From Leptolyngbya sp. 'hensonii' (GTDB lineage: Bacteria; Cyanobacteriota; Cyanobacteriia; GCF-001939115), in the NCBI RefSeq assembly GCF_001939115.1, contig NZ_MQTZ01000011.1, positions 10-60,862 on the forward strand: a DNA stretch of 60,853 nt, written 5' to 3'. Under the pieces are notes generated by a model. The model was not told where the DNA came from and did not search any database. It was given only the letters and a program-made list of their open reading frames with translations. Of this stretch, positions 2,536 through 56,251 are shown piece by piece; position 1 is the first letter of the stretch; every line of letters starts with the position of its first letter. A program made the position numbers and the translations under genes.

Positions 2536-3909
2536 ATGCAAGCTTACGCCAAGCCAGTCATTCACAAGTTACACAGTGGCACGATGAACAAGTTCGCAGG
2601 GGCTGCTCCCCGGCAGCGTCGTGTCCGATCGGAAATTGCAGGGGTGCCGGTAGAGGAGCTGGTGCAGCGGTTTGGGTCGCCCCTGTTTGTTTACTCGGAA
2701 CGAACCCTGCGGCGACAGTTCCGCACGATTCGTAACGCCTTTGCCACCCGCTATCCCGAAGTTACCTTCGGCTGGTCCTACAAAACCAACTACCTGAAAG
2801 CCATCTGTGCCATTCTGCATCAGGAGGGGGCGATGGCTGAACTGGTTTCTAAGATGGAGTACGACAAGGCGAAGGTCCTGGGGGTTCCTGGCCAGCAAAT
2901 CATCTGGAATGGTCCCCATAAGCCCTTTGATGCCCTGGAAGCAGCGGTGCGGGATGGGGTGACGATCAACATCGATCACCTGGATGAGGTGGAGGATCTA
3001 GAGGCGATCGCAACCCGTCTGGGGCGGCCTCTCGAGGTGGGCATGCGCCTGAATCTGGATTCAGGCATTCAGCCTTGTTGGTCCCGCTTTGGTTTTAACC
3101 TGGAGTCGGGTCAGGCTATGGATGTGGTGCAGCGGTTAGTGGATGGGGGTAAATTGCGGCTGGTGGGGCTGCATTGCCACATTGGCACCTTCATCATGGA
3201 CCCCCAGGCTTATGCCCAGCAGGTAGAGAAGATGGTGCAGTTTGGCTATGACGTGGAAGCCCGTTGGGGCTGGCGGATGAATTATCTTGATATTGGTGGG
3301 GGCTTTCCCTCCCGCAGTCGCCTCAAGGGGGTCTACCATGCGGCGGATGTGGTGCTGCCCTCGATCGACGACTATGCCGATGCCATCTGTGATACCCTCT
3401 GGCGGACCCTGAAACCGGGTCACCGGCCCCGCCTGATCATTGAATCGGGCCGGGCGGTGATCGATGAGGCCGGGTCCTTGATTACCAGTATCTGTGGTAC
3501 GAAACGATTACCCAATGGCACACCGGCTTATGTCATGGATGCGGGTGTGAATCTCCTGTTTACGGCCTTTTGGTATCGCTTTGATATCGCTATGGCCCGC
3601 GCCATTCCCGGTCCCTGTGAGATTTCGGTCCTCTATGGTCCCCTCTGCATGAATATCGATGTGGTGGATGAGGGAATTTCCCTGCCGCCGCTTTCTCGGG
3701 GCGATCGGCTAGTGGTTTCAACGGTCGGGGCTTACAACAATACCCAGTGGCTCCAGTTCATTGAGTATCGGCCCAATGTGGTGCTGGTGACAGAGGCGGG
3801 TGAGGTGGAGCTGATCCGATCGGCAGAAGACCTGAGCGATCTGGATCGACGGGAGCATCTTCCCTCCCATCTGGCCACCCGATCGGGGATGGAGAGTCAG
3901 CCATGCTAG
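2536..3909 (+). CDS. PLP-dependent fold-III decarboxylase, LysA-like but divergent
   Basis: A protein of 457 residues, alanine-racemase fold type III decarboxylase. Lys83 in the SYKTN motif takes the place of the PLP lysine of LysA; HCHIGTF, DIGGGFPS and IIESGR follow the LysA order (PLP phosphate and substrate sites). The C-terminal motif of meso-diaminopimelate decarboxylases (CESGD) is here CMNID, and the GAY motif is followed by NNTQW. So the catalytic Cys and Asp survive while the residues that read the D-centre of diaminopimelate have changed. It is probably a decarboxylase for another amino acid rather than the housekeeping lysA. The ATG at 2536 lies one base after the ATP-grasp stop; Met17 (2584) is a possible alternative. 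It overlaps the next gene by 7 bases. Confidence 0.8.
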   Translation: MQAYAKPVIHKLHSGTMNKFAGAAPRQRRVRSEIAGVPVEELVQRFGSPLFVYSERTLRRQFRTIRNAFATRYPEVTFGWSYKTNYLKAICAILHQEGAMAELVSKMEYDKAKVLGVPGQQIIWNGPHKPFDALEAAVRDGVTINIDHLDEVEDLEAIATRLGRPLEVGMRLNLDSGIQPCWSRFGFNLESGQAMDVVQRLVDGGKLRLVGLHCHIGTFIMDPQAYAQQVEKMVQFGYDVEARWGWRMNYLDIGGGFPSRSRLKGVYHAADVVLPSIDDYADAICDTLWRTLKPGHRPRLIIESGRAVIDEAGSLITSICGTKRLPNGTPAYVMDAGVNLLFTAFWYRFDIAMARAIPGPCEISVLYGPLCMNIDVVDEGISLPPLSRGDRLVVSTVGAYNNTQWLQFIEYRPNVVLVTEAGEVELIRSAEDLSDLDRREHLPSHLATRSGMESQPC

Positions 3910-6068
3910 ATCTGCCGATCGGCGCGTCCTCCTCAGCTCACCCGCTCTCAGGGGCACAGAGGGGGGTGCCCCCCTCGAAACAGCGATCGGTTCGATCGAT
4001 CCTCCACCCCATTGTCCAACCCCTGGGAGCGTTGCTCCAGGCGGTTTGTGCAGCCACCTCCGAAATTCTCTTCCTGCGTGGGATTCTGCCTGGTGCGCTG
4101 CTCCTCTCGGCCATGCTGCTGCAGCCCTCTGTTCTGGCTATGGGGTTGGTTGGAGTCTTTGCTGCGGTTGCCTTTGCCCGCATCACCCAATTGGGGCAGA
4201 CCTATCTGGGGCAGGGGCCATTCTTATTTAATCCCCTGCTGGCCGGACTCGGGGTCGGCTATTTGTTCCAACTCAGTCCGGCGGCCCTGTTCCTGGCTGC
4301 TGGGGCTGGGGTGCTGGCCTTTCTGCTAACCTGGGTCCTGTCCCATGTGCTCCGGACCTTCTTCTACCTGCCGGTGCTGAGCCTGCCTTTTGTGGTGGTG
4401 AGTTGGGTCGTGCATCTGGCTGCCTATCGCTATGCCGGTCTCAAAGCTGCCGTAGTGCCGGTCTATGCCTATACCATCGGTTTGCCTCTCCCGATCGAAG
4501 GCTTTCTTCGCACCCTGGGGTTGATTTTCTTCCTGCCCAATGTTTGGGTGGGTATTGTGGTGGTGGCTCTCCTCCTAGTCAATTCCCGCATCCAGTTTCT
4601 CCTGGTGTTGCTGGGCTATGCCCTGGGAACGACTGTGCGTGGGATTCTCACCGGCACCTTTGCCTATGTCTACTATGATCCGGCAGCCCTGAACTTCATG
4701 CTGGTCGCCCTGGCGATCGGTGGCTTCTATCTCCTGCCCTCACCCCGCAGTTATCTTCTAGCCGGAATCAGCGTCGCTCTGGCTGCCATCGTCGGGGAGG
4801 CCATTAGCGTCTTTTGGGCAGCGGTGGCCCTGCCGGTGCATGCCCTACCCTACAATTTGGTGACGCTGTTGTTGCTGTATCTGCTGGGGTTGGCGGGGTC
4901 TCGCTCCCTGGCCCGTTATCCTCAGGCGTCTCCAGAAAAAACCCTGGACCATGAACTGACTATCCAGCGCCGGTATCAAGGGACGGGCCGCACCCTGATG
5001 GTGCCCTTCACCGGACGGTGGGTGACCTGGCAGGGCTTTGAGGGAGCCTGGACCCATCAGGGGCTGTGGCGCTATGCTTGTGATTTCCTGATTCGGGATG
5101 ATCAAGGGCAGACCCACCGGGATGTTGGATTGCAACTGACGGACTACTATGCCTTCCAGAAGCCGGTGCTGTCCCCGATACGAGGTTGGGTGGTGCGGGT
5201 AGTGAATGACCTGCCGGACTGCGCGATCGGAACGGTGGATCAGGCCCACAATTGGGGCAATGCGGTGGTGCTCTACGATGAACGCGGGTTCTATGTGGAA
5301 ATTTCCCACTTTGCCCAGCACAGTATTGTGGTCAAGGCTGCCGATCGGGTGGAGCCGGGGACCCTATTGGGGCGCTGTGGTAACTCTGGTTATTCTCCCC
5401 AACCCCATATTCATATCCAGGTGCAGCTCCAACCCGATATTGGAGCGGCCACGGTTCCGTTCAGCTTTGTTAATCTCCTGGTGGATGGCCAGTTCCAGAC
5501 AGAATCGATTCCTGCAGTGGAGTCGGTGCTGGAGCCAGTGCGACCTGATCTGGTGCTGGCCCAGGCTATGACGTTCCCGATCGACAGTCGTCTCTCCTTC
5601 TGCAAGATGCGTCGGGGCCAGGTGGTCGGGCGGTTGGAGGTGGTGGTCAAGATGGCGGTGGATGGCTCCTTTTATCTGGATTCCGGTAAAGCCAAACTGT
5701 TCTTTGGGCGGGACGATACCGTTTTGATGTTCCATCGCATGGAGGGAGAGGATCCCTGGTTGCGGCTCCTCTGGCTGGCTGTTCCCCGCCTGCCCCTCAT
5801 CCGGCAGGTGGGCCATGCCTGGCAGGACTATCTGCCCATCAGTACCGTGAGCGGTGGTTTCCCCTGTCTTCTGTATCAGTTCGCCAGCGCCTTCTGGCCC
5901 CAACTGGCCTCTGTTTCGTATCAGGGGTATTGGGAAACGAATGAGACCCTGACGGGCAGATTGCAATTGCCTGGGACTCGACAGACCCTGTCCACGTCTG
6001 TGATCTTTGCGTCTACTGGGGAATGGTTGAAGGTGGGGGTGGGCGATCTCGCCCTGATGTTGATTTAA
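3903..6068 (+). CDS. Urea-transporter-like membrane domain fused to an M23 peptidase domain
   Basis: A protein of 721 residues. After a basic tail, residues of about 45-345 form some ten hydrophobic segments in the style of the urea transporter (UT) family, with the GQGPFLFNPLLAGLGVGY stretch typical of that fold. A second part (about 370-560) is an M23/LytM-like module: RYACDF supplies the Asp, GWVVRVVND and GNAVVLY the beta core, and PHIHIQVQ the HxH metal motif. The first metal His is not in the usual HxxxD spacing, so activity is uncertain. The last 150 residues are beta-rich and unrecognised. The ATG overlaps the decarboxylase stop. A channel for a small amide or amine coupled to a wall- or peptide-cleaving domain is implied by the domains, not proven. 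Confidence 0.75.
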   Translation: MLDLPIGASSSAHPLSGAQRGVPPSKQRSVRSILHPIVQPLGALLQAVCAATSEILFLRGILPGALLLSAMLLQPSVLAMGLVGVFAAVAFARITQLGQTYLGQGPFLFNPLLAGLGVGYLFQLSPAALFLAAGAGVLAFLLTWVLSHVLRTFFYLPVLSLPFVVVSWVVHLAAYRYAGLKAAVVPVYAYTIGLPLPIEGFLRTLGLIFFLPNVWVGIVVVALLLVNSRIQFLLVLLGYALGTTVRGILTGTFAYVYYDPAALNFMLVALAIGGFYLLPSPRSYLLAGISVALAAIVGEAISVFWAAVALPVHALPYNLVTLLLLYLLGLAGSRSLARYPQASPEKTLDHELTIQRRYQGTGRTLMVPFTGRWVTWQGFEGAWTHQGLWRYACDFLIRDDQGQTHRDVGLQLTDYYAFQKPVLSPIRGWVVRVVNDLPDCAIGTVDQAHNWGNAVVLYDERGFYVEISHFAQHSIVVKAADRVEPGTLLGRCGNSGYSPQPHIHIQVQLQPDIGAATVPFSFVNLLVDGQFQTESIPAVESVLEPVRPDLVLAQAMTFPIDSRLSFCKMRRGQVVGRLEVVVKMAVDGSFYLDSGKAKLFFGRDDTVLMFHRMEGEDPWLRLLWLAVPRLPLIRQVGHAWQDYLPISTVSGGFPCLLYQFASAFWPQLASVSYQGYWETNETLTGRLQLPGTRQTLSTSVIFASTGEWLKVGVGDLALMLI

Positions 6069-6096: not shown

Positions 6097-7173
6097 CTAC
6101 AATTCCACAATAAAAACCGATCCTCGGGGTTGATTGTCTTCAACGAAAATGCTACCGCCATGGGCTTCGATCGCCATTTTGCAAAACGCCAGTCCCAAAC
6201 CAGTTTGGGGAGCTCCCCTGATAATGCTGCCAATATCAAACTTGTCAAAGATCTGTTGGCGGAGCTCTTTACTGACGCCTGGTCCCAAATCTGCGACAGA
6301 AATTCTGGTCTGTTTATCAACCGGGTAGTCAATTTTGAGGGTTACCTGACTGCCGGAAGGGGAGAACTTGATGGCGTTGGAGAGTAAATTATCAAAAATC
6401 CGTCTAAAAATAGGGCTGTCAATGAATACAGTGTGCTCAACCTTGGGCAGGTCGTTAATCAGTTGGATATTTTTTTGAGCCGCGATCGCCTCAAAATCTT
6501 CAAGGGCCATGCTGGCAATGATCCGCAGATCTGCTGGCAGCAAATTTAGATCCATTTTGCCAGATTCCAATTTGGCCATGATCAGTAGGCTGTCAATTAA
6601 AGACTGCAACTGCTGCCCGGCAATTCCAATCTGTTGTATTTTCCGGAGCGGTTTTTCATCCAGTCCCAGCAGTTTCAGAAACTCACAGGATAGGGTGATG
6701 CTGGAAAGAGGATTTCGCAGGTCATGCACAATCATATTGACCAGATCTTCGCGCACCTGCATGAGGGTTTTTAAGGCATCATACTGTTGCTTGATCCGCA
6801 GCATGGAACGAACCCTGGCCCGTAATTCAACCCCGTTCACCGGTTTGCTCACAAAGTCATCGGCACCAGAATCGAGGCATTGGGCCAGGTCTTCCTTGGT
6901 GTTCAGGGCCGTGACCATGATGACGGGAATGTGTTGCAATTGCGGTTGAGCTTTAATGTGTCGGCAGACCTCAAAGCCATTGAGTCCTGGCATCATGACA
7001 TCCAGCAAAATAACATCGGGCTGGTGCTGTTCCAGATAGGCTAAGGCCTCGCTCCCATTGGGGACGTAACTCAATTGGTAGGACTCTTTAAACAGAAGAA
7101 TCTCGATAACGTCAAAGTTACCTGGTTCGTCATCCACAATCAGTAAAGAAATGGGCGGATTTTCTGGACTCAT
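6097..7173 (-). CDS. Response regulator-histidine kinase hybrid (REC-HisKA-HATPase)
   Basis: A protein of 358 residues. The N-terminal receiver domain (about 8-125) has the acidic pair in LLIVDDEPGN, the phospho-Asp in VILLDVMMPG and Lys in FVSKPVNG. HisKA follows with an intact H-box (MIVHDLRNPLSSI, about residue 150), then HATPase_c with NLLSNAIKFSP, DLGPG and TGLGLAF boxes, all complete. With no transmembrane or sensor domain, it is a cytoplasmic kinase whose input is phosphorylation of its own receiver. This layout is common in cyanobacterial phosphorelays. An Rcp1-like regulator lies 279 bases upstream on the same strand and could feed the same relay (inference). Confidence 0.9.
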   Translation of the reverse strand: MSPENPPISLLIVDDEPGNFDVIEILLFKESYQLSYVPNGSEALAYLEQHQPDVILLDVMMPGLNGFEVCRHIKAQPQLQHIPVIMVTALNTKEDLAQCLDSGADDFVSKPVNGVELRARVRSMLRIKQQYDALKTLMQVREDLVNMIVHDLRNPLSSITLSCEFLKLLGLDEKPLRKIQQIGIAGQQLQSLIDSLLIMAKLESGKMDLNLLPADLRIIASMALEDFEAIAAQKNIQLINDLPKVEHTVFIDSPIFRRIFDNLLSNAIKFSPSGSQVTLKIDYPVDKQTRISVADLGPGVSKELRQQIFDKFDIGSIIRGAPQTGLGLAFCKMAIEAHGGSIFVEDNQPRGSVFIVEL

Positions 7174-28276: not shown

Positions 28277-28960
28277 GTGACCAGGGGACATTTATCCCAA
28301 GTGAAAGCAGTCAAAGAATCCAGTCGTCCTAAACCACGGCTGGATTCTCTGTCGATCGGCATTGTTCTCTTCACCCTATTCCTGCTGGTCAAGGGGGCAG
28401 GGTTAATCTTTAGCTCCAAGCAGTTCGATCCATTGCCGCCCCTGGTCATGGTGGGTGGTGATCCCTATGTCCGGGCCTTGATGCGAACCATTTCTGCGAG
28501 TGAAGCGAATGGTTCGGATCCTTACGCCCTCTTGTATGGCGGGAGCCATGTGGAGAGTTTGAAGCAGCATCCTGATCGGTGTGTGACGATCGTGCGGGGA
28601 CCGAACATGGGCCGTTGTACAACGGCTGCCGGGCGGTATCAGTTCCTGACCTCCACCTGGCTGGAAAAGGCCCGCCGATATCATCCGCTGGCGAGATCCG
28701 GCAATCTATCGGCCTACAGTTTTGAGCCAGAGTATCAGGATCGGGTGGTCTATGCCTGGCTAACAGATGGTCGGGCCTGGGACGCAGATATTCCTACCCT
28801 TTTGCGGGAGGGGCATCTTGATCAGGTTCTGGAGCTGCTTTCGCCAACCTGGACGAGCCTGGGGCATGGAATAGAAAGTAATGTGATGACCCCCCATCTG
28901 CAGGAGATTTACCAGCAGGTTCTGACTGAGGAGCGGGCCAAGGTTGACCTGTTGCATTAG
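28277..28960 (+). CDS. Membrane-anchored lysozyme-like glycosidase (lambda endolysin/GH104-like)
   Basis: A protein of 227 residues with one membrane span (about 28-45) and an extracytoplasmic domain. ISASEANGSDPYALLYGG and TAAGRYQFLTSTW follow the pattern of lambda-type endolysins (catalytic Glu, then the tyrosine-glycine loop and AAGRYQ block). Such enzymes cleave the glycan backbone of peptidoglycan. The start is GTG at 28277. It lies 53 bases after pntB, perhaps by read-through, but there is no functional tie to the transhydrogenase. No holin or phage gene is nearby, so it is likely a cellular wall enzyme. Confidence 0.75.
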   Translation: MTRGHLSQVKAVKESSRPKPRLDSLSIGIVLFTLFLLVKGAGLIFSSKQFDPLPPLVMVGGDPYVRALMRTISASEANGSDPYALLYGGSHVESLKQHPDRCVTIVRGPNMGRCTTAAGRYQFLTSTWLEKARRYHPLARSGNLSAYSFEPEYQDRVVYAWLTDGRAWDADIPTLLREGHLDQVLELLSPTWTSLGHGIESNVMTPHLQEIYQQVLTEERAKVDLLH

Positions 28961-29157
28961 GGGAGCTTCTGCTTGTCCTGTTCCGTACTCTTTTATCGAC
29001 AGCAGATCACAGGTGCAGATGGTCTGTTCTTTCTGATTGTTGGAAAACTATACGAAAGATTGGCAAATTGTTGAGAGAGCGGGTAGATCTGGAAGTGTGC
29101 TATTCACAGTGTTCTCCCAGTGCCTTGGTCAGTCGTGCCCCCTCCTCACCATTTGTC

Positions 29158-30885
29158 ATGAATTTATCGTCTCTCCCCGATCCCTCTCTTTACGAAATTG
29201 CGCTTCAGGCTCAAGCGGCATCAACCCCTTTGCAGATCAGTCCGGCAACCTTTAAGTCGGTGATCAGCACGACGATCGACCTGCTTTTGGAGCAACAAAT
29301 CCAGGCAGTCCTTTGGGTGAAGTTGCCTCGTACGGAAGCCTGGTACGGTGATATTAAGCGCTATTGCAGTTCGGGTCTTTCGGCTCAGCCGATTCATGTT
29401 TTGCACTACCAGAAAGAAGAAGGGATTGAAGATCTCGTACCAGAGCCTCCACAGGAGTCAGGGATTGAGGATGGAGAGAAAGGATCTACCCTATCTACGC
29501 CTCCGAAGCCGAAGCAGGATCCATTGATCAATGGGGGTGGAATAGCCGGGAATTCCCTAGAGAGTTGGCTGAATCCTCAGAACACTTTGATTGGATCAGT
29601 TGAGTCTGGCCCTGAGATCATTCCTATTCCTTTAACCAGTAGTAGTCAGCTCAGGCGTGAATATTTTCTGTTGGTGATATCTGAGCGATTTTGTAGTCTG
29701 CTTTTGGGGCATCGTCCTCGATCAATGCAACTAACTCGACCAGATATCAATTTGGGTCAGGCTGCTGCCATTGCACCCAGGAGTTCCTCGACTGGATTGG
29801 CACAAAATTCATCTTTTGAGGAAGAGGTTCCAGAGCGGAAACAGCCCCTTCTGGCTATTTATTCCTTTCAAGGGCCGATCCTGGCCCAGGTGTTGCAAAG
29901 AATCCGACAGGTGATGCTCCCGGAGGTTCCTGACCCTGATGTGGATTTGCTGGTCAGTGATACCGGTATTGTTCAGGATGCAGAAGGGGGGCAGATTCAT
30001 TGGAATACTTTCCAAGCGATTTGTGCGGCCCATCAACCAGATCCCAACCTCCTGAACGCGATCGCCTCGAAGCAAGTGCAGCATTACGAAGAACTCTGGA
30101 ATCGAACAACGCTGTATCGCCGACAGGCAGAAGCCATGGAGGGCCTCCAACTGCAAAATGAAGCGTTGGCCAGTGCGATTCGTTTGAAAGATGAGTTTCT
30201 CAGTAACGTGGGCCAGGAACTGCGCACCCCCCTGACCAACATGAAGACAGCCCTGACCTTGCTCAATTCGCCCCAATTGAAGCCTGCCCAGCGACAGCGG
30301 TATATGCAACTGTTGAGTACGGAATGCGATCGCCAGGGCTCTCTGATCTCCAGTCTGCAAGATCTGGTGCAACTGGAGCATGCTGGAGATAACATGTCCA
30401 TGCAGGCTCTCCACTTGAACGATATTTTGCCGGGAGTGGTCAGTACCTATCAGCCTCTGGCCCAGGAGAAGGGGGTCATGCTGGCCTATACGATTCCTGA
30501 AAGTTTGCCGCCCGTATCCTGCCTCAGTACCTGGGTGAAACAAATTGCCATCAATCTGATTCACAATGGCATTAAGTTCACCCCCACAGGAGGACAGGTC
30601 TGGGTTCGGGCCAAGCAACAGGGGGATTATCTGCAACTGGAATTCCGGGATACCGGTATTGGTATCCCCCTGCCTGAAATTCCCAAGATCTTCGATCGGT
30701 TCTACCGGGTGCGTCAGGTCGAAGATTACGGGGGAGCGGGTCTGGGACTGACGATCGTGCAGCAAATTTTGTTGCGTTGCGGTGGGTCGATTTCGGTCAA
30801 GAGTAAACCGGGTGAAGGCTCAACATTTAATGTGCTGCTACCAATCTATAAGAATGCTGGCGAAAGCACAGGGCCATTGCTTTAA
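29158..30885 (+). CDS. Histidine-kinase-like protein lacking the phosphoacceptor His (DICT-like sensor)
   Basis: A protein of 575 residues from the ATG at 29158 (MNLSSLPDPSLYEIALQA); the frame is open further upstream without family-like sequence. The N-terminal 300 or so residues resemble a cyanobacterial DICT-type sensory region with a variable acidic insert (about 95-165). A HisKA helix pair follows, but its H-box reads FLSNVGQELRTPL: the His is Gln353. The HATPase_c domain is complete (NLIHNGIKFTP, RDTGIGIP, GGAGLGLTIV). It should bind ATP but cannot phosphorylate itself at the normal site. It is convergent, across 24 bases, with a related protein that has the opposite defect. Confidence 0.8.
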   Translation: MNLSSLPDPSLYEIALQAQAASTPLQISPATFKSVISTTIDLLLEQQIQAVLWVKLPRTEAWYGDIKRYCSSGLSAQPIHVLHYQKEEGIEDLVPEPPQESGIEDGEKGSTLSTPPKPKQDPLINGGGIAGNSLESWLNPQNTLIGSVESGPEIIPIPLTSSSQLRREYFLLVISERFCSLLLGHRPRSMQLTRPDINLGQAAAIAPRSSSTGLAQNSSFEEEVPERKQPLLAIYSFQGPILAQVLQRIRQVMLPEVPDPDVDLLVSDTGIVQDAEGGQIHWNTFQAICAAHQPDPNLLNAIASKQVQHYEELWNRTTLYRRQAEAMEGLQLQNEALASAIRLKDEFLSNVGQELRTPLTNMKTALTLLNSPQLKPAQRQRYMQLLSTECDRQGSLISSLQDLVQLEHAGDNMSMQALHLNDILPGVVSTYQPLAQEKGVMLAYTIPESLPPVSCLSTWVKQIAINLIHNGIKFTPTGGQVWVRAKQQGDYLQLEFRDTGIGIPLPEIPKIFDRFYRVRQVEDYGGAGLGLTIVQQILLRCGGSISVKSKPGEGSTFNVLLPIYKNAGESTGPLL

Positions 30886-30909
30886 CAACCGAGCCCACAA
30901 GGTTAGGGG

Positions 30910-32454
30910 TTAAACGGTTCGAATATCCGAACTGCGCATCTCCAGGCTGGTGCGCTCCAGGGGTAGGAAGATGGTTAATACTTCCCCCTGTTGAGGCCGC
31001 TGGCGCACAATCAGTTTTCCCCCTAAAGCCTGAAATAAATTTTTGGTTACGGCCATACTGAGGCTAACACTGCCAGTCTCCGGTTGGAAAGCCAGCAATT
31101 GACCCAGGGCTTTGAGGGAAGGTCGGGAATGACTCCCAGCACTCTGGGAGGACTGCAACTGTAGCTTCAGTTGGTCACCGGCTGCTGTGACTTCTACCTG
31201 GATATGACTTCCGGCAGGTAAATTGCGAGTGAACCGTTCCATTAATCCCGTGAGGGCTTGATCCAGAATCGTGGGATCGCTGACGACCGTTGGCATTTGC
31301 TGAGGTAAGAGGACTTCCAGAGTAAGGTTGCGCTGACTGGCCTGTTGCTTCCAGCGGGGAATTCCCTGTTGAAAGACCTGATCCAGGGGGGTGGCAGCCA
31401 GGGGCATGGTATGGGATCGGGACGTAGCCGTTTCCAATTCAGCGGCCTTGAAGATCAAATCAAACCGATCGATCTGTTCACTGCATTGCCGATCAATCAT
31501 CTCCAGACGCTGAATGGCTACTGCCGAGAGATCTTGACGTTTCAGCAGCGATCGAGTCAGGGTCCGAATGGTGGTCAGTGGGGTTCGGATTTCGTGGGCG
31601 ATCGCCCGCAAAAGCTCCACATCTGGCGCAGGAGAACACAGGGCAGGGGCAGAGTGATCGGCATAGGATTCCGTTTGCTGCCGCTTACTGTCTTCTTTGA
31701 CCAGGGTCTTCCGGGGGTCTATCCGTTCCGCCAAGTCTGGTAAATGCCCCAGCAACAGCCGACTGAAGCGGGTGACGAGACGGTAATCAGGGGCGGTGGG
31801 GGTGAACTGCCCGACCAATTCATCGAGCCGATCGATCTGGTGGGGGACGGTGACGAGAACCCTGGGGCGCAACACATTCCAGGCAAAGAGGAGAGTGGCC
31901 GGGTCGAAGGAGAAATGGAACCTGGTCTGGCCGGTGTGATCCTGCCCCAAAACCAGAAGAATACTGAGCTGGTGGGTCAACAGCAGGCAAAATTGTTCAT
32001 CAGCCAGAGGATCCAGGGGCAGTAAAGGCAAGGTGCAAGAGGCATGCTGGACGGCAGGGCCTTGCTTTTCCCCACCGGGTGGTAGTTGAAACGGTAGCCA
32101 GCCCAGGGGACCCAAGGACGATGTTGTAAAAACCCAGGTGGATAGCTTGCTGATCAGGACTGGATCGCTGAGGGGGGAGGAAGGGGAAGCCAGAACTACA
32201 CCCTCTATCGGGTGAGAACCGGATTGGGTTGATTGGAAGAGCAGAGCGTTCAGGGCAGCAATGGCACCAAACCACTGTTGCTCAGCCCTGATTGGGTTTT
32301 GGGTGGTAGTAAAAGCAGGGCGAGGAATCTCAGATCGAATCGACCCTGGGGCAGGCTCTGTTGAATTGTGGAGCCCATCTGCCAGCCCACCGCCTAATTC
32401 AGCATCGCTGAGGGCGATCACTTCACTTAACGTAGGCAGCATCCACTTATCCAA
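30910..32454 (-). CDS. Histidine-kinase-like protein with intact His but degenerate ATPase domain
   Basis: A protein of 514 residues. A sensor-like N-terminus (about 1-265) shares features with the neighbouring kinase-like protein (FCLLLTHQLSILLVLGQD beside YFLLVISERFCSLLLGH). The H-box is intact: AIAHEIRTPLTTIRTL, His287. The HATPase region is degenerate: the N-box Asn residues are gone (LTGLMERFTRN), no DxGxG is present, and the GxGxG lid reads GSVSLSMAV, while the end KLIVRQRPQQGEVLTIFLP is kept. So it may receive but not donate ATP phosphate. TTG at 32454 is preferred because AAGGAGGTGA stands 5 bases before it; ATG 32442 and 32499 are alternatives. Confidence 0.78.
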   Translation of the reverse strand: MDKWMLPTLSEVIALSDAELGGGLADGLHNSTEPAPGSIRSEIPRPAFTTTQNPIRAEQQWFGAIAALNALLFQSTQSGSHPIEGVVLASPSSPLSDPVLISKLSTWVFTTSSLGPLGWLPFQLPPGGEKQGPAVQHASCTLPLLPLDPLADEQFCLLLTHQLSILLVLGQDHTGQTRFHFSFDPATLLFAWNVLRPRVLVTVPHQIDRLDELVGQFTPTAPDYRLVTRFSRLLLGHLPDLAERIDPRKTLVKEDSKRQQTESYADHSAPALCSPAPDVELLRAIAHEIRTPLTTIRTLTRSLLKRQDLSAVAIQRLEMIDRQCSEQIDRFDLIFKAAELETATSRSHTMPLAATPLDQVFQQGIPRWKQQASQRNLTLEVLLPQQMPTVVSDPTILDQALTGLMERFTRNLPAGSHIQVEVTAAGDQLKLQLQSSQSAGSHSRPSLKALGQLLAFQPETGSVSLSMAVTKNLFQALGGKLIVRQRPQQGEVLTIFLPLERTSLEMRSSDIRTV

Positions 32455-32459
32455 CCGTC

Positions 32460-32469
32460 TCACCTCCTT
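32460..32469 (-). promoter_or_regulatory. Strong ribosome-binding site deciding a TTG start
   Basis: On the minus strand AAGGAGGTGA, a near-perfect anti-Shine-Dalgarno match, ends 5 bases before TTG 32454. The nearest ATG (32442) would be 17 bases away, which is too far, and the upstream ATG (32499) lies before the site. Confidence 0.65.
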
Positions 32470-32696
32470 ACCCAAGTGTGAAGCCCTGGAATCCTGCATA
32501 GTTGGGATTAAAGGCCATCCCAGAGATCCCCCGATCAGGGTGGGTCAAAAACCACGATGATGTCGTTGATCAACGCTTCTTAATACCAGAGTATCCGCAC
32601 CTCACTCTAAGATCTATCTATGAGAACCGAACTCTCCAGTCGCAATCTCCGCCGCTGACTGTTGCAGAATGGAAATACACTACCTCCAGAGATACC

Positions 32697-51397: not shown

Positions 51398-51886
51398 CTA
51401 TTTAATCTTCCTCAGTTTCCCATTTTCGTATTGCCAGATTTGGGTGGGGAGAGAACCCGTGCCTCGATTGGGAGGGCCGCCAGGAAATGTGACGAATAGC
51501 TTAGGGCCTTGCTGTTTCAGGAGTGGGTCCGCCCCACCACAGAAATCGAGGGGTGGGGAGAGGGTGTAGGTACTATCGGCCCGTATGCCTAAAAAGTAAA
51601 GGGGACCGCCATTGCAGGCATTGCCTCTGGGAATTTCCTGGTACACCAGCACTTCCTCCAGGTTGCCAAGATGGCGAAAACGACCGATCACGATCGGGGC
51701 GTAGGCGTTCTGGCAGTTCAGGCGGTTGATCACCTTGTTCTCCAGGAGCACCTGACAACGGCCAGCAGCGTCTGGAGCCAGAATTTTGAACTTGCCCCCG
51801 ATCGTTTCCAGTTCAACCGTGATTTTTTGGGCCAGAGCACTGGGTGTGATCAATCCGATCAAAAGCCAGGGAATAATTCTTTGCAT
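51398..51886 (-). CDS. Small secreted protein of unknown function
   Basis: A protein of 162 residues from the ATG at 51886 (MQRIIPWLLIGLITPSALA, a clean signal peptide); an ATG three codons earlier is possible. The mature part holds four or more Cys residues, including CQVLLEN, LNCQNAY, NACNGGP and FCGG, which suggests disulfides in the periplasm. I do not recognise a family. It is divergent from the large light-sensor kinase across about 70 bases, so their promoters overlap. Confidence 0.65.
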   Translation of the reverse strand: MQRIIPWLLIGLITPSALAQKITVELETIGGKFKILAPDAAGRCQVLLENKVINRLNCQNAYAPIVIGRFRHLGNLEEVLVYQEIPRGNACNGGPLYFLGIRADSTYTLSPPLDFCGGADPLLKQQGPKLFVTFPGGPPNRGTGSLPTQIWQYENGKLRKIK

Positions 51887-51958
51887 AGCCACCATTGTAG
51901 AAACGAAGTTGAAACCGCTACAAAAATAATTAATCCCCACCATAGGTGCCAGCGTCAA

Positions 51959-54900
51959 ATGTTTACAGGTGTTTCAGAGGTGAGACAGGCTATTAACCGC
52001 AACGTACTGATTGTCTCTCCCGATACACCTCTGATCCAGGTGATTGAACGGATGAATCAGCGGCGATCCCTGATGCCAGACGAACCTCAGTCCTGGGCGA
52101 TCGCGGATAGCCCCAAAGCAGAAAGCTGCAGCCAGCCTACCTGTGCCTTGGTGATGGCATCGGCCCAGTTGTTGGGCATTTTCACCAGTCAGGATGTTAT
52201 TCAGGCCGTGGCCTCAAAATGTAACCTGGAGGAAACGACCATTTCAGAGGTGATGACTACTCCGGTTGTGACCTTGAACTTGGCAGATTTGAAAGATGCC
52301 TCGGTAGTGCTGGATGTGATGCGCCAGTACCAGATTCACCATTTGCCGATTCTGGATGAGCAACAGCAACTGCTGGGAGTCGCCACGTGCAAGAGTTTGT
52401 TATGTGCAGGCCAAAACCCGGAAGTTGCCTTGCACAGGAGTGAGGAACAGCGTTCTCTGGCCCTGGATATGACCCAACTGGGGACGTGGGACTGGGATAT
52501 GACGACAGGGAGCTTAACCTGGACGGACAACACATTTCGATTATTAGGTTTTGCGCCTGGAGAAGTGGAGCCCACACAAGCCGTTTGGCGTCAGCGGGTC
52601 CACCCTGAGGATCTGGAGGGCATTGAGCAGGCGACCCTGCGTGATCTGGAGGGCCAGGGTCCGGGTGAGGTTGAATACCGGGTAGTGCATCCTGATGGCA
52701 GTCTGCACTGGCTGCTGGGCAAGGGCAAGGTGGTCCATGATCAGGATGGAAAGCCAGTGCGGATGCTGGGCATCCTGATGGACATCAGCGATCGCAAAGC
52801 GGCTAAAGAGCAGTTGCGGCAACAACAACAATTGACGGAGCAGATTGCGGAGTCTACGGCAGCCATCCTTTACATCTATGACCTGGTGGAAAACTGCAAT
52901 GTGTATGCCAATTCCCAGATTGAGGCAGTTTTAGGATATTCCCCGGATGAGGTTCAGGCTCTGGGCAATGCCCTCTTTTCGACCCTGGTGCATCCAGAGG
53001 ATTTTCCCACCCAAATGGTTAATTATCAGCACTGTTTCACCCTGAAAGATGGGGAAATTCTGGAGACAGCCTACCGGATGCGGCACAAGCAGGGGGAGTA
53101 TCGCTGGCTGCTCAGTCGCGATCGCGTCCTCAACCGCATGCCAGACGGTTCTCCCCGGCAAATTCTGGGCGTCGCTACAGACATCACCCTCCTGAAAGAA
53201 ACCCAGGTGGCTCTGCAACACCAGGCCGATCGGGAACGGCTGATGGCGACGATCTCTCAGCGGATTCGCCAGTCATTAAATCTGGAAATGATTCTGGCAA
53301 CTACAGTGGGGGAGGTGCGGCAACTACTCCGAACCGATCGGGTGATTCTCTACCGGTTTGATCCGGATTGGAGTGGGATTGTGGTGGCTGAATCGGTGGC
53401 AGAAGCCTGGTCCCCGATCCTGAACTTGAAGATTACCGATACCTACTTTGTCGCAACCCAAGGCCAGAGCTATCAGCAGGGCACCATCAGGGCGATCGAT
53501 GATGTTCAGGTCGCTGGGTTGGACCCCTGCCATCTGGCGCTGATGGAACAGCTTCAGGTGCGAGCGAAACTGATTGTGCCTGTGCTGCAGGGACGCTGTG
53601 TCTGGGGATTGCTCATCGCCCATCATTGTGCCGCTCCCCGCTCTTGGCATCCCTGGGAGAAGGAACTCCTGTCCCAACTGGCGACCCAGGTGGGGATTGC
53701 GATTCAACAGGCCAATCTCTATCGTCAGGCCCAGCATGAACTGGCCGAGCGCAGACAGACAGAACAGGCACTACGCTTATCCCAGGCCCGGTTCGCTGGG
53801 ATTCTGGATGTGGCTAGTGATGCCATTATTTCCATCGATAGCAACCAGCGTGTGACCCTATATAACCAAGGGGCCGAAAAGATGTTTGGCTATCCGGCCG
53901 ATGAGGTGCTGGGCCAACCTCTTGATCTGTTGCTCCCCAAACGTTTTGTGGGCATGCACCGCCACCATGTCAGAGACTTTGCCCAGGGAGAGGCTCCGGC
54001 CCGCCGGATGGGAGAACGCCAGGAAATCTTTGCTCGTCGTCAGGATGGGCGTGAATTCCCCGCTGAGGCTTCCATTTCCAGGTTAACCCTGGCCGGAGAA
54101 ACGATTCTGACGGTGATTCTGCGGGATGTCAGCGATCGCAAGCGGGCTGAAGCGAAACTCCGCGAACAACAGGCCCAACTGGACCTGGTGGTACAGGCGT
54201 CAAATGTGGGGTTCTATCTTTCCGATCTGCAAACAAATACGTCCTATGTGTCGCCTGCTTACAAGGCCCAGCTTGGTTATGCTGCTGAAGAAGAATCGGG
54301 TAGCCCTGCCGATTGGAATAGCCGTCTCCATCCCGAAGATCGAGACCGGGCGATCGCAGCCTACCAGGCGTTTAAGCGCCAGGAGGCCCCTTACAACATT
54401 GACTTTCGCTTGCGCCACCGGGATGGCAGTTATCGCTGGATTTATAGCAATGCCCAACTCATTCTGGATGATAGAGGATGTCCAGCCAAAATTGTGGGGA
54501 CCCACATCGACATCACCGATCGCAAACAGGCTGAAGCAGCCCTACAACAATTAAACCGGGATCTGGAGTGGCGGGTCCAGGAGCGGACTGAAGCCCTGCA
54601 GCAACAGGCAGACCAGGAACAATTACTCCGATTTGTGGCCCAGCGGATTCACCAATCCCTCGATTTAGAGGAAATTTTGATCACGGTGTTGACAGAAATC
54701 CGCCATACCCTGCAAGCCGATCGAGTCGCTATCTACCGGTTTAACCCCGATTGGAGCGGTACTTTTGTGGCGGAATCGGTCGATACAAATTGGGTTCCCT
54801 TAGTCGGACCTGATATCCAGACGGTTTGGCCAGATACCTACCTGCAAGAAACCCAGGGAGGGCGCTACCGGCAGGGTGAAACTTTTGCAGTCAACGACAT

Positions 54901-56251
54901 CTATACCATTGGGCATAGCCCTTGTCATGTGGACATTTTGGAGCAATTCCAGATCAGGGCCTATGCGATCGCGCCGATTCTGGTGCAGGACCACCTCTGG
55001 GGTCTGCTGGCTGCCTATCACAATGCAGCTCCGCACCAGTGGCAGGCTCGGGAAATCAACCTGTTGTTGCAGATTAGCCTCCAGACCGAGATCGCGATTC
55101 AGCAATCCGACCTGTTTCAGCAGGTGCAAATGAATTTGGCCGTCAAAGGGCTCCTGGTGGAGATTGCGGAGACTATCAACCGGTCTGTCCAGTTTGACCA
55201 GGCCCTGACAGATATCCTGAAGCGCATCCAACAATTCCTTGGCTGCGATCGGGCGATCGTCTACCGTTTGCTCCCGGATGGCAGGGGTGTGATTGAGGAA
55301 GAGGCGACATCGCAGCCAGAACTTTCCCTATTGGGGCAAATCATTGACGACCCCTGCCTTAGCCGGGACTATGCAAAACGCTACGAGCAGGGCTACATCA
55401 CGCTGCTCAACGATCGAGAAACGGCTGACTTGCGGCCCTGTTACCTTGAATTCCTGGCTCAACTCCAGATTCGGGCCAATCTGGTTGTCCCGATTTTGCA
55501 GGCGGAAACCCTCTGGGGCTTACTGATCCTGCATCAATGTCATACCCCTCGCCAGTGGCAATTGTTTGAGATTGATCTGCTGCAGCAGGTCGGGTTGCAA
55601 ATTGGGATTGCCGGTCAGAAGGCTGCCCTTTATGCTCAGTTAGAGAACGAACTCCACCAAAAAGAGGTCCTGATTCGGGAGGTGCATCATCGGGTAAAAA
55701 ACAATCTGCAGGTGATCTCCAGCTTGCTCTATCTGCAATCAGCCACGATCGAGAACCCGGATATCTTGCAACCTTTTATTGAGAGTCAGCATCGGATTGA
55801 TATCATGGCCATGATCCATGAACGGCTCTATCGGTCTGGTAACCTGGCGAACCTCAACTTTGCCAGTTATGTCCGTGATCTGGTGGAAGATGTGTTTCAG
55901 TCCTATCTCCCGATTGGGGCTAGCATTACCTGGCAGGTAAAAGTTGCTGAGCTAGAGTTGGAGCTGGATATCGCCATTCCCTGTGGGTTGATTATTAATG
56001 AATTAGTGTCCAATGCGATTAAATATGCCTTCCCCAACCGCCGCTCTGGTGAGATTGGTATTATCTTTGATTACGAAAATTCTCAGTATCAATTGATCAT
56101 TAGAGACAATGGAATTGGGTTTCCTCAGTTGGTGGACTTTCGCAATACAGAGTCTCTGGGGATGCAGGTGGTCTGTGCATTAACTCGACAACTGGGGGGA
56201 AGTATAGAATTGAATCGGGATGGCGGTACCGCCTTTGCGATCACGTTTTAA
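51959..56251 (+). CDS. CBS-PAS-PAS-GAF-PAS-PAS-GAF-GAF histidine kinase with cyanobacteriochrome-type GAF domains
   Basis: A protein of 1430 residues from the ATG at 51959; the open frame further upstream is the complement of the secreted gene. Order: CBS pair (about 10-150), PAS (160-280), PAS (290-410), GAF1 (430-590), PAS (610-730), PAS (740-857), GAF2 (890-1050), GAF3 (1064-1227), HisKA_2 with EVHHRVKNNLQ (His1243/1244) and HATPase (NELVSNAIKYAF, DNGIGF). Each GAF has the bilin-type Cys: Cys524 (GLDPCHL), Cys989 (GHSPCHVD) and Cys1161 (LRPCYLEF). GAF2 has WPDTYLQETQGGRYRQGE as in red/green cyanobacteriochromes; GAF3 has a second Cys (Cys1133, DDPCL) as in DXCF types. There is no membrane span, so it is cytoplasmic. 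Confidence 0.85.
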   Translation: MFTGVSEVRQAINRNVLIVSPDTPLIQVIERMNQRRSLMPDEPQSWAIADSPKAESCSQPTCALVMASAQLLGIFTSQDVIQAVASKCNLEETTISEVMTTPVVTLNLADLKDASVVLDVMRQYQIHHLPILDEQQQLLGVATCKSLLCAGQNPEVALHRSEEQRSLALDMTQLGTWDWDMTTGSLTWTDNTFRLLGFAPGEVEPTQAVWRQRVHPEDLEGIEQATLRDLEGQGPGEVEYRVVHPDGSLHWLLGKGKVVHDQDGKPVRMLGILMDISDRKAAKEQLRQQQQLTEQIAESTAAILYIYDLVENCNVYANSQIEAVLGYSPDEVQALGNALFSTLVHPEDFPTQMVNYQHCFTLKDGEILETAYRMRHKQGEYRWLLSRDRVLNRMPDGSPRQILGVATDITLLKETQVALQHQADRERLMATISQRIRQSLNLEMILATTVGEVRQLLRTDRVILYRFDPDWSGIVVAESVAEAWSPILNLKITDTYFVATQGQSYQQGTIRAIDDVQVAGLDPCHLALMEQLQVRAKLIVPVLQGRCVWGLLIAHHCAAPRSWHPWEKELLSQLATQVGIAIQQANLYRQAQHELAERRQTEQALRLSQARFAGILDVASDAIISIDSNQRVTLYNQGAEKMFGYPADEVLGQPLDLLLPKRFVGMHRHHVRDFAQGEAPARRMGERQEIFARRQDGREFPAEASISRLTLAGETILTVILRDVSDRKRAEAKLREQQAQLDLVVQASNVGFYLSDLQTNTSYVSPAYKAQLGYAAEEESGSPADWNSRLHPEDRDRAIAAYQAFKRQEAPYNIDFRLRHRDGSYRWIYSNAQLILDDRGCPAKIVGTHIDITDRKQAEAALQQLNRDLEWRVQERTEALQQQADQEQLLRFVAQRIHQSLDLEEILITVLTEIRHTLQADRVAIYRFNPDWSGTFVAESVDTNWVPLVGPDIQTVWPDTYLQETQGGRYRQGETFAVNDIYTIGHSPCHVDILEQFQIRAYAIAPILVQDHLWGLLAAYHNAAPHQWQAREINLLLQISLQTEIAIQQSDLFQQVQMNLAVKGLLVEIAETINRSVQFDQALTDILKRIQQFLGCDRAIVYRLLPDGRGVIEEEATSQPELSLLGQIIDDPCLSRDYAKRYEQGYITLLNDRETADLRPCYLEFLAQLQIRANLVVPILQAETLWGLLILHQCHTPRQWQLFEIDLLQQVGLQIGIAGQKAALYAQLENELHQKEVLIREVHHRVKNNLQVISSLLYLQSATIENPDILQPFIESQHRIDIMAMIHERLYRSGNLANLNFASYVRDLVEDVFQSYLPIGASITWQVKVAELELELDIAIPCGLIINELVSNAIKYAFPNRRSGEIGIIFDYENSQYQLIIRDNGIGFPQLVDFRNTESLGMQVVCALTRQLGGSIELNRDGGTAFAITF

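Follow-up and report, generated by a model that had tools for sequence, protein, structure and literature searches.

Conserved complementary defects in two convergent cyanobacterial histidine kinase homologues: a candidate split HisKA kinase

Can two neighbouring histidine kinase homologues, each defective where the other is intact, make up one working kinase between them? The question is raised by a 60,853-nt stretch of the 5.94-Mb genome of the cyanobacterium Leptolyngbya sp. 'hensonii' (contig NZ_MQTZ01000011.1; hereafter the window), in which a plus-strand gene encodes a protein, termed A, with Gln at the phospho-acceptor position and intact ATP-binding boxes, and the convergent minus-strand gene encodes a protein, termed B, which keeps the His and has lost the ATP-binding boxes. 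A preliminary description of the locus had suggested that A binds ATP and phosphorylates the His of B in a heterodimer. Here, we report a comparative analysis of both proteins across cyanobacterial genomes. We find that the two defects are conserved, that A practically never occurs without B and that B commonly occurs without A. We tentatively favour a reading in which the pair would form a split HisKA kinase, with ATP used by A and the His supplied by B, and weigh it against other roles for the two proteins.

Two proteins with complementary defects

The open reading frame (ORF) of protein A spans positions 29068–30885 of the plus strand, being open from a TTG at 29068, and encodes a DICT sensory domain, a DHp (HisKA) domain and a HATPase_c domain (Table 1); the PF10069 match lies above the family cut-off and places A in the DICT family. 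Gln353, within ...FLSNVGQELRTPLTNMK..., stands where an ordinary class I (HisKA) kinase has its H-box His. The ATP boxes are intact (NLIHNGIKFT, DTGIGI and GAGLGL), with the catalytic and ATP-binding (CA) domain residues N470, D498, G500, G502 and GxGLGL at 526–531, and the F-box residues F512 and F515 are in place. The reading frame and the Pfam scores thus agree with what had been described for the plus-strand protein. A is exceptional in its own genome, because all 34 other histidine kinase rows with a recognizable motif have His at the acceptor site, one further row lacking the motif and the comparison leaving out the family C kinase at C14:2041 (see below).

Protein B comprises a degenerate DICT-like N terminus, a DHp domain with His and a degenerate CA domain. 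Its acceptor His is residue 302 of the full ORF and residue 287 counted from an alternative TTG start at 32454, and is therefore the His287 of the preliminary description. It sits within ...AIAHEIRTPLTTIR..., a perfect H-box of the form HE-x-R-T-P-L. The N, G1 and G2 boxes by which an ordinary class I kinase binds ATP were looked for in protein B and none was found, and HATPase_c scores 20.6 bits, below its cut-off of 26.4, in line with the reported loss of the N-box Asn and of the DxGxG and GxGxG residues. PF10069 (DICT) is not listed for the B of the window at E values up to 1; weak matches (E up to 0.1) occur in 6 of 39 B members, the best having an E value of 0.016.

Table 1. Coordinates of protein A, protein B and their features in the window.
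Feature	Position	Strand	Details
Protein A: DICT, DHp (HisKA, Gln for His), HATPase_c	29158..30885	+	575 aa from ATG 29158
A DICT sensory domain, residues 9–186	29182..29715	+	PF10069, 92.1 bits, cut-off 23.8
A DHp/HisKA, residues 344–408	30187..30381	+	PF00512, 41.4 bits
A Gln353 codon, phospho-acceptor position	30214..30216	+	relatives' alignment
A ATP-binding CA domain, residues 458–563	30529..30846	+	PF02518 (HATPase_c), 96.2 bits
Tail-to-tail gap between stop codons of A and B	30886..30909		24 bases
Protein B: degenerate DICT-like N terminus, DHp with His, degenerate CA	30910..32499	-	529 aa
B segment homologous to A 150–312 (second half of DICT and linker), residues 149–254	31738..32055	-	hhalign E 3e-9
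B DHp helices, residues 292–357	31429..31626	-	PF00512, 32.8 bits; AlphaFold2 helices 292–319, 326–357
B His302 codon	31594..31596	-	relatives' alignment
B CA-fold domain without N, G1 and G2 boxes, residues 365–514	30958..31407	-	profile search, alignment, predicted fold
B FQPETG motif, residues 471–476	31072..31089	-	conserved where ATP site was lost

Conservation of the two defects

Two sets, of 59 and 388 genomes, were searched for relatives of A and B, and fetched loci and 80 named loci were added. In 150 A sequences, taken from 149 genomes, Gln occupies the acceptor position in 143, Leu in four, His in two and Glu in one; with the named loci included (171 rows) the counts are 163, 4, 2 and 2, and among the 166 distinct sequences left after removal of duplicates they are 158, 4, 2 and 2. 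A sequencing error or a recent mutation in A, which close homologues with a normal His would have indicated, is ruled out by Gln in 158 of these 166 relatives; homologues with His are nearly absent (2 of 166). The remainder of the kinase core of A is conserved more strictly still: the N-box Asn, GxGLGL and, within DxGxG, the Asp and both Gly are unchanged in 150 of 150 sequences, both F-box Phe residues are present in 171 of 171 rows, and a Thr at +4 from the acceptor is found in 155 of the 171.

Protein B is conserved in the opposite sense. Its 208 sequences comprise 192 distinct ones, with His at the acceptor position in 191 and a gap in one. In the HExxT motif, Glu at +1 is present in 204, and Thr at +4 in 207, of the 207 rows with a residue. 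The N-box Asn and the glycine boxes are missing in all 30 relatives listed, and a conserved stretch, FQPETG...TKNLFQALGGKL, replaces the lost ATP region. Three genomes, G018, G035 and G049, have lost the Glu at +1; all of them lack A, but they come from one family and are too few to use. With 166 distinct A sequences and 192 distinct B sequences showing the same complementary defects, neither chance nor sequencing error accounts for them, and the losses are, as judged from these alignments, ancient and conserved.

A third conserved pseudokinase family, here family C, has a GAF–HisKA architecture and likewise carries Gln for His (QELRTPLTS). It is fully degenerate, with no N, G1 or G2 box by pattern in 15 of 15 loci (L417, L418, L419, L420, L422, L423, L425, L428, L429, L431, L433, L436, L440, L442 and L443). 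Family C has the member at C14:2041 in the genome of the window and is also found in a genome without A (G021).

Distribution across genomes

Presence was scored in 388 genomes of the class, with E-value limits of 1e-15 for B and 1e-55 for A; a genome counted as lacking A is one with no match at the latter threshold, at which remote A relatives may be missed. B was found in 372 of them, compared with 171 for A, and can therefore not rely on A alone. Of the 334 genomes with a completeness of 90% or more and no more than 5% contamination, 141 have A and 323 have B, and 140 of the 141 with A also carry B, the exception (G287) being an assembly of 1060 contigs. A survey of homologues for co-occurrence of the two defects, which the preliminary description had proposed as a check, thus shows A practically never without B: A nearly requires B, and B does not require A.

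B reaches into the smallest genomes. Eight minimal genomes (1.6–1.9 Mb) encode four to five HisKA proteins each, with B among them in all eight. Their 46 receiver matches lie in ORFs of 198–334 aa and none lies in a HisKA ORF, so these genomes have no hybrid kinase. Five sensor kinases are reported for Prochlorococcus MED4 in the excerpted text of PMC2663038, and B would be one of the five. All B homologues in the named collection are from cyanobacteria except one record labelled Candidatus Gracilibacteria (L245, JAAUUT010000121.1); its B gene is close to the cyanobacterial ones, and the record is probably a binning or label error.

Gene order and linkage

The genes for A and B are convergent in the window, as had been described. 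They lie tail to tail with a gap of less than 2 kb in 17 of the 149 genomes with A, a count that includes some loci for which longer flanks were retrieved on account of linkage already noticed. A also lies within the 6-kb flank of 22 of the 80 named B loci, in 21 of them convergently; three of the A sequences at these 22 loci duplicate ones from the genome set. Where both genes reside on a single contig longer than 4 Mb (18 genomes), they are within 5 kb of each other in five, against 0.04 expected, and more than 5 kb apart in 13. These counts are not independent events, because the linked families share ancestry; the linkage is nevertheless far above chance and occurs in many families.

Outside this arrangement, the commonest neighbour of A is murE, which lies directly upstream on the same strand in 94 of the 165 genomes or named loci whose flanks are long enough, at a median distance of 110 bases (identified by TIGR01085, for example with 566 bits at L275:9122–10618, minus strand). 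murE and A are likely to form an operon; the A gene of the window is not preceded by murE. B follows an ftsW/rodA-type gene in 5 of 168 genomes or named loci (PF01098 in both examples tested), an order seen in picocyanobacterial and some other genomes, with L211, L212, L214 and L227 among the B loci concerned, and psaD lies downstream of B in picocyanobacterial genomes. The presence of murE beside A and of ftsW/rodA beside B hints weakly at a role linked to the cell wall.

Homology, predicted structure and coevolution

The resemblance between the sensor parts of the two proteins, which had been noticed from the sequence of the locus, proved to be homology: profile comparison aligns A 150–312 with B 149–254 at the E value given in Table 1, and the kinase parts align at E 4.7e-24. 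A tree built from 71 kinase cores places A and B in separate clades (support 100/99 and 100/100) that are not sisters, with B on a long branch and A nearer to ordinary kinases. The best match of the B kinase profile in its own genome is nominally A, at 71.1 bits against 70.7 for the next.

AlphaFold2 models the DHp and CA folds of B with confidence (mean pLDDT 78.7); its model of A is weaker (mean pLDDT 71.6). The best solved-structure matches of B are RetS, DivL and GacS, tied at Z 16–17, with RetS and DivL at 16.7 each. ChpT and Spo0B are not among the best 50 matches listed for B by Foldseek and in a second fold list, which excludes nothing. In paired mutual information from 122 A–B pairs, pairs between the two DHp domains make up 8 of the top 100 column pairs against 1.5 expected.

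Other features of the window

Between pntB and A, a plus-strand ORF of 227 aa (28277–28960) has no Pfam or NCBIfam match and looks, by eye, lysozyme- or transglycosylase-like. Elsewhere, the window encodes a 721-aa ORF that fuses a urea transporter domain to a peptidase M23 domain (3903–6068, plus strand), a 358-aa protein with a receiver ahead of HisKA and HATPase_c (6097–7173, minus strand), and a sensor of 1526 aa, rich in PAS domains and similar at its end to PhyK-type kinases (51671–56251, plus strand).

Comparison with known systems

Our search of open-licence papers returned no paper on the A–B pair, and a locus name for B in model strains was not found there. The published systems nearest to it are compared here with excerpts of the cited papers. 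In CheA3/CheA4 of Rhodobacter sphaeroides, ATP binding falls to one protein and the His belongs to its partner (PMC3591291), and A and B likewise divide ATP use and acceptor His between two proteins. CheA3/CheA4 are, however, of the CheA type and have lost whole domains, whereas A and B are full-length DHp–CA proteins with point-like losses, and the His-bearing half B is also kept without A. According to the same excerpt, the acceptor half of a split kinase of this type can also be a phosphatase, and HisKA proteins without HATPase but with an HE/DxxN/T motif are suggested to be bifunctional split halves, a description that B suits by function, although its CA fold remains. A cyanobacterial split histidine kinase, Hik36–Hik43 of Synechocystis PCC 6803, is described in the excerpt of PMC7656254; unlike A and B, it is a CheA/PilL protein divided between an HPt part and a catalytic one.

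Other parallels concern each protein separately. In DivL of Caulobacter, a conserved Tyr takes the place of the His, and the protein retains ATP binding but shows no autokinase activity, as excerpted from PMC4211667. A resembles it in its conserved non-His acceptor residue and retained, intact CA domain; DivL, as described there, differs in its Tyr, PAS sensors and alphaproteobacterial origin from A with its Gln and DICT domain. B resembles ChpT, Spo0B and PhyT, which in the excerpt of PMC5898713 have a DHp domain with His and a CA-like domain that does not bind ATP, and B shows the same combination of a conserved His and a CA fold without an ATP site. Those proteins are described as taking phosphate from a receiver, whereas B also occurs where there is no hybrid kinase and has a DICT-like part. 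RetS and GacS of Pseudomonas (structure 7n0e) are two different HisKA proteins in contact through their kinase cores. RetS acts as a regulator of GacS.

A possible split kinase and its alternatives

At the level of sequence, an ATP-competent and a His-bearing protein are separately encoded, as a split kinase would demand. We tentatively place first, while holding it to be somewhat short of probable, the reading that the two proteins together make a split HisKA kinase, in which A would use ATP, B would carry the His and face the response regulator, and some other donor would serve B in genomes without A. We propose that A would sense through its DICT domain and keep a working nucleotide site and kinase F-box; that A uses ATP is suggested by the invariance of both, and its ATP site seems to be held by selection because family C, which shares the Gln, has no ATP boxes at all. 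This invariance, together with the contrast to family C, ranks phosphorylation of B by A ahead of the other readings; also in its favour are the conserved acceptor residues of both proteins, the linkage of their genes, the near-constant presence of B alongside A, the homology of the sensor and kinase parts, the HExxT motif of B and the CheA3/CheA4 precedent. A signal would arrive at the DICT part of A, of B or of both; the CA domain of A would dock on the DHp domain of B, either in a heterodimer or by contact between homodimers; His302 of B would be phosphorylated from ATP held by A; and phosphorylated B would pass its phosphate to a response regulator. Free B may dephosphorylate the regulator through its HExxT motif, and in genomes without A another kinase, or the phosphorylated regulator, may load B. 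In this scheme, the contact between A and B, the phosphotransfer, its direction and its output are what we infer.

Several observations weigh against this reading. B works without A in about half of the class. Two A proteins bear His (L010 of G024 and L168 of G374), although their congeners have Gln; these look like rare reversions. Gln alone is no mark of an ATP donor, because family C has it without an ATP site. A history in which one kinase was duplicated and the copies then suffered complementary losses finds no support in the tree, where A and B are not sister clades. Swapping partners among relatives left the mean of the DHp block unchanged (z -0.4), so that the coevolution signal is at the level of clades. 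Convergent neighbours lack co-transcription and may persist without function, and the gene for A is commonly found downstream of murE and not in an operon with kinase genes. Of the original proposal, the conserved complementary defects, the linkage and the rarity of A without B stand. An obligate pair is argued against by the range of B, which occurs in roughly double the number of genomes that have A, minimal ones included, and so has at least one role independent of A. Rather unlikely, and graded below the reading above, is the strongest form of the split-kinase idea, in which A and B are an obligate trans-phosphorylating pair, B being a phylum-wide core acceptor loaded by A or another kinase and DICT sensing being coupled to cell-wall growth.

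A serious contender, if also a doubtful one, is that A and B share a pathway in which A does not phosphorylate B. A would be a DivL-like pseudokinase, binding ATP for shape or allostery and sensing a response regulator or modulating a real kinase, and B a ChpT-, Spo0B- or PhyT-like phosphotransferase or phosphatase, receiving phosphate from a phosphorylated receiver. Both halves have precedents, DivL with its non-His acceptor and retained ATP binding acting upstream of ChpT (excerpt of PMC4211667), and PhyT, Spo0B and ChpT being degenerate kinases that retain the His (excerpt of PMC5898713). RetS and DivL are among the best structural matches of B, and the wider range of B than of A fits a phosphotransfer role independent of A. 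In the minimal genomes, however, B is kept and no receiver lies in a HisKA ORF, which makes a classical relay from hybrid kinase to HPt impossible there, and A retains the kinase F-box besides its ATP residues. That F-box and the invariant ATP site also suit kinase chemistry better than the proposal, which we consider improbable, that A is a dedicated phosphatase whose Gln faces the phosphorylated Asp and positions a water, with ATP or ADP as cofactor and B serving that regulator as its kinase-side or phosphotransfer partner. CheZ-type and HisKA_3 phosphatases use catalytic amide residues, and the acceptor of A is nearly always Gln and not a product of random loss: a single base change turns either Gln codon into a His codon, and yet His was seen only twice, and the phosphatase-type Thr at +4 is mostly kept. 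Leu, Glu or His stands there in 8 of 166 A sequences, though, and Leu or Glu should not support an amide mechanism. Least probable of these readings is that A and B are functionally unrelated, with separate partners, their adjacency being an ancestral accident kept in some lineages. The occurrence of B without A in half of the class, the separation of the genes in most single-contig genomes and the prevalence of murE as neighbour of A would all fit; the recurrence of tail-to-tail linkage in many families, the near-constant company of B wherever A occurs and the homology of the sensor parts speak against it.

Implications

Complementation of a His-less by an ATP-less histidine kinase is a classic laboratory trick. 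If A does phosphorylate B, cyanobacteria would have fixed this arrangement in nature, in a split kinase of natural origin that belongs to the ordinary HisKA class, is conserved throughout the phylum and has a predicted switch-like response, for which a theory exists for split kinases (excerpt of PMC3591291). It would also explain how a near-universal cyanobacterial 'histidine kinase' that is unable, by its sequence, to bind ATP survives even in minimal genomes. Even without phosphotransfer between them, the core pseudokinase B and the His-less A with its invariant ATP site represent testable gaps in our understanding of signalling in photosynthetic bacteria.

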